Part shown: in pieces, positions 11,976 to 14,870 of the stretch
Layout of the letters: each line of letters begins with the position of its first letter
Position numbering within the stretch: position 1 is the stretch's first letter
Assembly (NCBI GenBank): GCA_018712605.1
Contig: DVGR01000185.1
Coordinates: 1 to 33,647 of the forward strand
Direction: 5' to 3'
Source: Candidatus Choladousia intestinigallinarum
Lineage (GTDB): Bacteria > Bacillota > Clostridia > Lachnospirales > Lachnospiraceae
DNA length: 33,647 nt
The notes under the pieces: model-generated
Told to the model about the DNA's origin: nothing
The model's input: the letters and a program-made list of their open reading frames with translations, nothing else
Database searches by the model: none
Made by a program: the position numbers and the translations under genes

Positions 11976-12834
11976 ACGAACCGTGGAGGACAGCCAGGCG
12001 TATAAAATCAAGCCTAAGAAGGTGCCGGATGGATTATTCCGCATCTGTGATGCCTGCGGCAAAATCGTATATGAGGAAGATGTCATGGACAACAAATATT
12101 GCTGTCCTAAATGCGACGCTCATTTCAGGATTGATCCAGAGAAGAGAATCCGTATGGTGGCGGACCGGGATTCCTTCCGGGAGTGGGATGCGGATCTCAC
12201 AGGAGGAAATCCTCTGGATTTCCCGGAGTATGATGAGAAGATGGACAGCGTCCGGGAAAAGACGGGGCTGAAGGAGGCCGTGGTCACAGGATGCGCAACC
12301 ATCCATGGCATGAAGACGGCTCTGGGAGTCATGGCTTCCGGGTTTCTCATGGGCAGCATGGGAACTGCGGTAGGGGAGAAAATCACCAGGATGATCGAGA
12401 GGGCCACCAGAGAACATCTTCCGATTGTGCTTTTCTGCTGTTCCGGAGGCGCCAGGATGCAGGAAGGAATTCTCTCCCTGATGCAGATGGCTAAGACGGC
12501 CCAGGCTATAAAACGCCACGATGAGGCGGGACTTTTATACATTCCTGTACTGACCGATCCCACCACAGGAGGTGTTACCGCAAGCTTTGCCATGCTTGGG
12601 GATGTAATCCTGGCGGAGCCGGGAGCTCTCATTGGCTTTGCGGGGTCCCGGGTGATCCGGCAGACCATCGGGCAGAAGCTTCCAGATGGCTTTCAGACGG
12701 CGGAATTCCTGTGCAGACACGGTTTTGTGGACCGGATCGTAAAGCGCAGCCAGCTTAGAAGAACCTTGGCTACTTTGATTCAGAGCTCTATGCCAGGGTA
12801 CTACAGACAGGCGGGAGGTAAATATGATCGTTAA
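11956..12834 (+). CDS. accD: Acetyl-CoA carboxylase carboxyltransferase subunit beta
   Basis: Zn ribbon CDACGKI...[15 protein letters not shown]; 20-nt overlap with accC. Confidence 0.96.
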
Positions 12835-13654
12835 ACAAGGTGTTACAGCGTGGGAGAGAGTGCAGCTCGCTAGAGGAAAAAACAGGCCCCATGCCATGGA
12901 CTATATCAGCAGCATTTTTGACAGTTTCATGGAACTGAGGGGAGACCGGGTATACGGAGATGACCGGGCCGTGATCGGCGGAATCGCTTCTATAGGAAAG
13001 CGGTATGTGACGGTGATCGGGCAGCAGAAGGGAAGAAGCCTGAAAGAGAATCAGCACAGGAATTTTGGCATGATGAATCCGGAAGGCTACCGGAAAGCCC
13101 TGCGGCTGATTCGGCAGGCGGATAAATTTCACCGCCCAGTGATACTCTTTGTGGACACACCGGGCGCTTTCTGCGGCGTAGAAGCAGAAGAGCGGGGGCA
13201 AGGAGAAGCCATTGCCCAGAATTTGTTTGAACTCTCCGGTGTCCAGGTTCCTGTCCTGTCTATTGTAGTCGGTGAGGGCGGCTCTGGCGGAGCGTTAGCC
13301 CTGGCTATGGGAAATGAAGTGTGGATGATGGAGAATGCGGTGTATTCCGTCCTGTCTCCCGAGGGGTTTGCGGCCATCCTCTGGAAGGACGGAACCCGTG
13401 TGGCAGAAGCGGCGGAGGCTATGAAGATCACGGCCCAGGATCTGAAGGATTTGGGCGTGATTGAGAAGATCATACCGGAATCTTTTCCGGCAGATAAAGA
13501 TTACATGCAGGCTTTATCTGGAAAGCTCCGTGACGAGATCCTGGATTTTCTGAGAAGATACCAGGACAAAACAGGAGACCAGATCAAAGAAGAGCGGTAT
13601 GACAGGTTCAGAAGACTGGGAACACCGGGCCAGGAGATGGACGGAATTTTTTAG
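12824..13654 (+). CDS. accA: Acetyl-CoA carboxylase carboxyltransferase subunit alpha
   Basis: [56 protein letters not shown]. Confidence 0.96.
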
Positions 13655-13670
13655 AAAACGGAATTTTTAC

Positions 13671-13737
13671 GGCAGGAGAGACTGCTGCATGAAAACATTT
13701 GATTGTTTTATGCGGCGGCATCTTCTGCCTTTTCTAT
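13671..13737 (+). terminator. Probable terminator of the fab-acc operon
   Basis: GGCAGGAGA...GCATGAAAACA TTTGAT TGTTTTATGC...TCTTCTGCC followed by TTTTCTATTT. Confidence 0.6.
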
Positions 13738-13758
13738 TTGAAACTTCGTTCTAATCTA

Positions 13759-13787
13759 TTGCAAATGCAGAGTGAATGAATTATAAT
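13759..13787 (+). promoter_or_regulatory. Sigma-A-type promoter for the Rpn-family gene
   Basis: TTGCAA (13759-13764), 17-nt spacer, TATAAT (13782-13787). Confidence 0.7.
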
Positions 13788-13855
13788 ATAACATATGTAA
13801 AACGCATTTTATTATATATAGAAAAGCGACTTTTACAAAAAGAAAGGAGAGGTTC

Positions 13856-14815
13856 ATGAACTCGGATGCGAAGCTCAAGGAATTTTGGGGAGAGAGTTCG
13901 CATTTTGCAGATTTGTTTAACACGGTTTTGTTCGGCGGAGATCCTGTGATCCTGCCGGAGACGCTTGCGGAAGCAGGGACAGATTTAGCCTTATCCATTC
14001 AGAAAAAGGCAAAGGGGGAAGCTTCCATAGAAAAGTTCCGGGATGTCTTTAAAACATGGAAGGGCCACTCCCTGGCGGTGCTGGGGATTGAGAACCAGAT
14101 GCGGGAAGAGTATACTATGCCTGAAAGGATCCTGCTCTATGACGCATTGGGGTATGAAGTCCAGAGGCGGAGAATTGCCAGGAGACATAAGCGGGAGAGG
14201 GATGTGAAGGATTCGGCAGAGTATCTCTGCGGGTTTAAGAAGACAGACAGGCTCCTGGCCCAGGTCACCATTGTGATTTATTATGGAGAGGAACCCTGGA
14301 GGGGTCCAGAGAGGTTGACTGACATCGTGGAGGTCCCACAGGAACTGAGACACTGTTTTAACGATTACAGGATCTTCGTGTTTTCCATAAATGAAAGCGA
14401 CGGCTCAGAATTTAAAGATCCGGAGGTTCGGAAGATCCTAAAGGCAGCCTATCATCTGCGCAGAAAGCAGATCCGGGATCTGGAGCCCATGGATGCGGAA
14501 GAGATCGAAGTGCTGGGAGCCTTTGTGAATTCCCGGCGGATTGCCAAACTGGCAGAGAAGAAAGAGGAGGGGATAGACATGTGTACGGCGTTGGAAGAGA
14601 TGATAAAAGAGAGTGAACAGAAGGGGCTGGAACAGGGGTTAGAACAGGGGTTAGAGCAGGGATTAGAGCAAGGAAGGAGACAAGGAAAAAAGCAGGGAAT
14701 TCATGAGACAATGGCCTATGTAATACAGGCTATGCATCAGAAAGGCTTTGAGGCGGAGGAGATAGCAAAGACCTTCCAGTGGCCCTTGAAGCAGGTGAAG
14801 AAATATATCAGGTAA
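13856..14815 (+). CDS. Rpn family recombination-promoting nuclease / putative transposase (PD-(D/E)XK)
   Basis: Residues around MNSDAKLKEFWGESSHFADLFNTVLFGG and YYGEEPWRGPERLTDIV, plus a C-terminal LEQG-repeat helix, fit the Rpn/PDDEXK-transposase family. Confidence 0.85.
   Translation: MNSDAKLKEFWGESSHFADLFNTVLFGGDPVILPETLAEAGTDLALSIQKKAKGEASIEKFRDVFKTWKGHSLAVLGIENQMREEYTMPERILLYDALGYEVQRRRIARRHKRERDVKDSAEYLCGFKKTDRLLAQVTIVIYYGEEPWRGPERLTDIVEVPQELRHCFNDYRIFVFSINESDGSEFKDPEVRKILKAAYHLRRKQIRDLEPMDAEEIEVLGAFVNSRRIAKLAEKKEEGIDMCTALEEMIKESEQKGLEQGLEQGLEQGLEQGRRQGKKQGIHETMAYVIQAMHQKGFEAEEIAKTFQWPLKQVKKYIR
14579..14815 (+). CDS. Candidate intragenic in-frame C-terminal product of the Rpn gene (78 aa, MCTALEEMIKESEQKG...)
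   Basis: In-frame ATG (codon 242) preceded by AAAGAGGAGGGG; GGAGG lies 8 nt from the ATG. Confidence 0.5.
   Translation: MCTALEEMIKESEQKGLEQGLEQGLEQGLEQGRRQGKKQGIHETMAYVIQAMHQKGFEAEEIAKTFQWPLKQVKKYIR
14627..14698 (+). repeat. 12-nt tandem repeat encoding (LEQG)4-RRQG-KKQG in the Rpn C-terminus
   Basis: CTGGAACAGGGG TTAGAACAGGGG TTAGAGCAGGGA TTAGAGCAAGGA AGGAGACAAGGA AAAAAGCAGGGA. Confidence 0.85.
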
Positions 14816-14838: not shown

Positions 14839-14870
14839 CAGGGGGATTGGAAAATCCCCCTGAAAATTTT
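14839..14870 (+). terminator. Rho-independent terminator after the Rpn gene
   Basis: CAGGGGGATT GGAA AATCCCCCTG followed by AAAATTTTAT. Confidence 0.8.

Follow-up and report, generated by a model that had tools for sequence, protein, structure and literature searches.

Toxins and the antitoxins that restrain them may share a single reading frame. In Escherichia coli, rpn genes produce short RpnS proteins from internal starts; each RpnS neutralises its own RpnL nuclease by blocking growth inhibition, SOS induction and DNA cleavage, the two proteins form a 2:2 complex, and four-residue repeats set the specificity of the pair (Zhong et al. 2023; PMC10327210). The same authors obtained RpnS, in a ribosome-binding-site- and start-dependent manner, from a Clostridioides difficile rpn gene expressed in E. 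coli. The question raised by the locus described here is whether an rpn gene of a Lachnospiraceae metagenome-assembled genome (MAG), Candidatus Choladousia intestinigallinarum, is organised in the same way. The DNA analysed (hereafter the window) is a stretch of 33,647 nucleotides, contig DVGR01000185.1.

Genomic context of the rpn gene

The rpn gene is flanked by accA on one side and by a gene encoding a Cys-cluster protein on the other, in a fragmented genome of approximately 3 Mb. Its neighbourhood consists of accA and ordinary metabolic genes, and no recognised defence island was distinguished there. Since a promoter-like site is located upstream and terminator-like hairpins are present on both sides (Table 1), rpn is probably a single-gene transcription unit.

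Table 1. Coordinates of the features distinguished at the rpn locus (window positions).
Feature	Position	Strand	Remarks
Terminator-like hairpin 3′ of accA	13714..13729	+	Consensus scan only
Promoter-like site TTGCAA-17-TATAAT, full-length rpn	13759..13787	+	10/12 matches; consensus scan only
Shine-Dalgarno of full-length product (AAAGGAGAGG)	13843..13852	+	Sequence
rpn (RpnL), 319 codons	13856..14815	+	Predicted 319-aa PD-(D/E)XK nuclease, Rpn/YhgA family; catalytic residues, profiles, AF2
Internal Shine-Dalgarno AGGAGG	14565..14570	+	8-nt spacer to internal start; predicted unpaired
Internal ATG (codon 242) and rpnS	14579..14815	+	Predicted 78-aa C-terminal product, three helices
Four in-frame LEQG repeats (12-nt units)	14627..14674	+	Period-12 array; inside first long RpnS helix
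Terminator-like hairpin 3′ of rpn	14839..14862	+	10-bp stem; consensus scan only

The accA-rpn pairing (window 12824-14815; L245 and L246) is also found in one relative from the genus (G001), and no rpn gene lies beside accA in G030 or the remaining relatives examined, within the short flanks compared. A second rpn copy of the same genome (L002, G000:C86:16899-17051) shows 86% identity across the first 51 aa and is cut by the contig end; a further TIGR01784 match is located at G000:C229:7570-8043. A single-protein scan of contigs returned seven loci, and the named relatives were Lachnospiraceae, Dorea and Blautia MAGs.

Assignment of the full-length product to the Rpn family

Changes at residues D11, D63, E82, Q84 and R94 of E. 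coli RpnA affected the phenotypes studied by Kingston et al. 2017 (PMC5350276), a work in which RpnL and RpnS were not separated. All five residues are kept in the window protein, as D4, D63, E79, Q81 and R91, respectively. Among 75 sequences D63 and Q81 are invariant and E79 nearly so; the PD-(D/E)XK catalytic residues are present and, judged from the sequence, the nuclease residues are intact. The single protein scores under the curated cut-offs (TIGR01784, 26.7 vs 52.1; PF04754, 15.1 vs 21), a profile cut-off being a curation threshold and not a mechanistic feature. Because PF04754 was matched at E <= 1e-3 by 49 of the 75 homologs, and hhalign to RpnA gave E 1.3e-4, we assign the window protein, despite its scores, as a predicted divergent relative of the Rpn family (COG5464 / TIGR01784 / PF04754) and not as a textbook member. 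Its nuclease part shares about 19% identity with E. coli Rpn proteins. The conserved catalytic residues thus bear out the Rpn assignment made in an earlier sequence-only reading of this DNA. Pfam and NCBIfam also matched the C-terminal tail to FliH, EutK_C and Yae1; these hits appear to reflect helices of low complexity and were set aside.

An internal start within the window gene

The same reading had proposed that a Shine-Dalgarno (SD) sequence, the hexamer ATAGAC and an in-frame ATG at codon 242 would give rise to a 78-aa product carrying the LEQG-repeat helix. These elements lie where it had placed them (AAAGAGGAGGGG, 14561-14572; ATAGAC, 14573-14578; ATG, 14579-14581), and the four repeat units fall within the first predicted RpnS helix. 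The window contains 7 instances of AGGAGG-N5-9-ATG, with 2.3 expected, so that taken alone the motif is mildly unusual and constitutes weak evidence. The AGGAGG/ATG 14579 pair is the strongest combination of SD and start codon within rpn in any frame (-12.4 kcal/mol), and its SD strength was equalled by none of 60 synonymous recodings. The mRNA at this site folds no better than shuffled sequences (z 0.02) and accessibility in homologs adds little (0.60 vs 0.58); control by mRNA structure was therefore rejected.

Conservation of the start codon and Shine-Dalgarno sequence

Genus and family searches yielded 159 near-full-length aligned open reading frames (ORFs). Statistics were calculated on 153 of them, leaving out L156 (a GTA row that looks misaligned) and a few short or ambiguous rows. 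The column of Met242 in the 159 ORFs contains ATG (131), GTG (20), TTG (3), GTA (3), TTA (1) and a gap (1); in 77 representatives of 50% identity clusters it contains ATG (63), GTG (11), GTA (2) and TTA (1). Valine in this column is nearly always encoded by GTG (P = 5e-8), a codon chosen for 34% of valines across these genes. Substitutions of Met242 are thus almost confined to other start codons. Three homologs (L030, L133 and L171) carry GTA or TTA in this column (two well-aligned GTA, one TTA) and possibly lack RpnS or use another start. The codon following the internal start (window 14582-14584; RpnS position 2) encodes Cys in 146 of the 159 ORFs; this nearly invariant residue is absent in E. 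coli RpnA, which has Thr instead. The internal start sequence of RpnA is aaGGAGagtttaATG, and its SD is AAGGAG, compared with AGGAGG in the window gene.

The SD proved to be conserved as well. Pairing with the 16S tail has a mean hybridisation energy of -10.9 kcal/mol, compared with -7.7 kcal/mol for synonymous recodings (z -15.8), and 71 of the 77 cluster representatives (one gene per 50%-identity cluster) beat their own recodings. Of these 77 genes, 56 have AGGAG or GGAGG at the site, with 21 expected. As a control, 1388 other internal ATGs of the same genes were analyzed and displayed no SD excess (-2.65 vs -2.60); the motif is found at 72% of the sites in question and at 3.7% of the other internal ATGs. 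All three reading frames are used by GGAGG (EE-type, 46; GG, 30; RR/GR, 7), which lies 7-11 nt from the start codon. The amino acids vary while the DNA signal stays constant, i.e. the SD is kept as DNA and not as protein. In an unbiased scan of in-frame ATG, GTG and TTG codons the site ranked first in 120 of 153 genes, and several more distant TIGR01784-type genes from the same order contain a strong SD and an ATG 57-104 codons from their end. The sequence-only reading had itself suggested checking SD and ATG in homologs; both turned out to be retained, and what is retained is the initiation signal and not the protein sequence. It is this conservation, not the single motif, that excludes chance, and it shows that the internal start has been maintained by selection as a start, at the boundary between nuclease and tail.

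Predicted structure of RpnS and its four-residue repeats

In the AF2 model of the full protein (pLDDT 92) a long helix begins at residue 242 and is followed by two short helices, and RpnS modelled alone also forms three helices. The tail is thus predicted to be a separate domain beginning at Met242. The crystal structure of E. coli RpnA-S (7TH0) likewise consists of three helices (PMC10327210). When RpnA-S was compared with the RpnS profile by hhalign, 35 tail columns were aligned with E 2.8e-5, and in a search of the profile against all PDB entries 7th0 appeared at E 0.12. Foldseek searches of PDB found no match at E <= 0.001 for either model, and 7TH0 was absent among the best 50 matches. 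Structural support for homology with the three-helix RpnA-S is therefore partial.

The four-residue repeats begin 8-20 residues past the internal Met in E. coli and about 16 in the window gene. The number of repeats varies between close homologs. When homologs were paired if the part preceding the internal start was 75% identical or more, 53 of 64 pairs showed an RpnS length difference divisible by four, these pairs not being independent of one another.

Solo and rearranged rpnS copies

Genes encoding only the C-terminal part begin at the same Met as the internal start. One solo rpnS (L037) lacks a nuclease domain; its ATGTGT is preceded by AGGAGG at a distance of 9 nt, and the gene is located between a methyltransferase-like gene and a nitroreductase-like gene. 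In another (L034), only about 12 N-terminal nuclease codons are left, out of frame, and are followed by a complete RpnS ORF. Locus L135 (G224:C1) comprises tandem rpn copies with differing repeat numbers; in one of them the nuclease core has been deleted in frame, with the SD, internal start and tail retained.

Putative internal promoters in a subgroup of homologs

Transcription start sites were reported within all E. coli rpn genes (PMC10327210). Fourteen homologs (L112, L113, L122, L131, L134, L137, L142, L149, L150, L151, L172, L176, L177 and L183) contain the sequence TTTACA-N17-(TGN)TAAAAT (TACAAT in L137), whose end precedes the internal start by 152-164 nt. When the 54 nt around this site are considered, 10 of 12 consensus matches are attained by 14 genes, whereas 1.2 are expected, and none of 200 resamplings gave as many as 14. 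All 14 genes use TTA for the first Leu, and the codon supplying the TA of the -10 element is always NTA, the encoded residue being Leu, Ile or Val. The subgroup members are each other's nearest relatives, with a median identity of 40%. Common ancestry contributes to the shared promoter, but mere inheritance appears unlikely because the 14 genes are divergent. This putative extended -10 promoter is placed to make an rpnS-only transcript and, in view of the E. coli transcription start sites, looks like their Firmicute counterpart.

When the entire family was tested for internal promoters, no convincing signal emerged. In the window gene nothing above 8 of 12 matches was found 130-200 nt upstream of the internal start, and there is no promoter near that start, in which it differs from the E. 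coli systems. Over the whole gene a single strong match in sense orientation was recorded (14088-14116); as it overlaps the codons of the conserved catalytic IENQ residues and is not present in the other homolog representatives, it was treated as a chance occurrence.

Comparison with known Rpn systems

The window gene resembles E. coli RpnA/B/C/D/E and RpnP2 in combining a PD-(D/E)XK nuclease with an internal SD and start, four-residue repeats and a predicted three-helix C-terminal tail, and the predicted domain boundary at Met242 agrees with that of E. coli RpnL/RpnS. RpnS-only gene copies and, in some homologs, an internal promoter are likewise common to the E. coli systems and the present family. 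The C. difficile gene is similar as a Gram-positive rpn with an RpnS, though it comes from another species, is another gene and is likened here by description only. The gene-within-gene layout that the sequence-only reading had proposed for this Firmicute family is supported by the homolog conservation; as news for Firmicutes it was anticipated by the C. difficile gene.

Alternative explanations

The SD-like sequence could be a by-product of a linker rich in Glu, Lys and Gly, with Met242 kept for protein reasons and no initiation inside the gene. Such linkers do favour the motif, GGAGG being present in 19% of synonymous recodings already. However, GGAGG is kept in three frames coding for EE, GG or RR, Met gives way almost only to Val (GTG) and Leu (TTG), and the SD energy goes far past the synonymous expectation at this ATG and not at other internal ones, all of which makes a by-product highly improbable. 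We consider it just as improbable that the SD acts as a pause site for ribosomes passing from the nuclease to the tail domain. Its position exactly at the predicted domain boundary would suit a pause, which however leaves unexplained both the restriction to ATG, GTG and TTG at a fixed spacing and the existence of solo rpnS genes with this very codon as their start.

A different possibility is that RpnS is made and acts mainly as a structural subunit or a DNA-binding autoregulator, not as an antitoxin. The last two helices resemble pieces of helix-turn-helix domains (resolvase, IstA, LuxR-type tails), and the 2:2 complex of E. coli would be compatible with a subunit. Against this role stand the variation of the four-residue repeats, which fits self-recognition, and the E. 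coli experiments, where RpnS blocks the growth inhibition, SOS induction and DNA cleavage caused by its own RpnL. We regard it as unlikely, though less so than a by-product or a pause.

Proposed function of the locus

We conclude that the window gene is probably (at a probability of roughly 0.8) an rpnL-rpnS gene-within-gene toxin-antitoxin system. Ribosomes initiating at 13856 would synthesize RpnL, a putative PD-(D/E)XK DNA endonuclease, while those loading at the internal AGGAGG would start at ATG 14579 and produce RpnS, the 78-aa helical tail. RpnL would then be held inactive by RpnS, which would contact the identical RpnL tail by way of the long helix bearing the repeats, and would be freed upon infection or stress; the number of four-residue repeats may set which RpnS fits which RpnL. 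Translation of RpnS in the Choladousia host is suggested by the sequence signals described above, and inhibition of RpnL, its activation and phage defence by analogy with the E. coli systems.

More speculatively, gut Firmicutes might tune the antitoxin by means of control elements located inside the toxin frame. The strength of a nearly universal internal start would be varied (ATG, GTG, TTG or lost), the subgroup promoter about 160 nt upstream would provide an antitoxin-only transcript, and Cys2 of RpnS, exposed after removal of Met, might be a redox or stability switch. We put this forward as a tentative idea, less likely to hold than not.

Annotations of such genes as 'putative transposases' would miss the predicted second product. 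A start-codon column read together with an SD in shifting frames provides a simple sequence test for functional internal starts. The analysis extends RpnS from experiments in E. coli and with one C. difficile gene to a selection-based case across a large family of gut Firmicutes, in which the rpn frame would encode both a nuclease and its predicted antitoxin.
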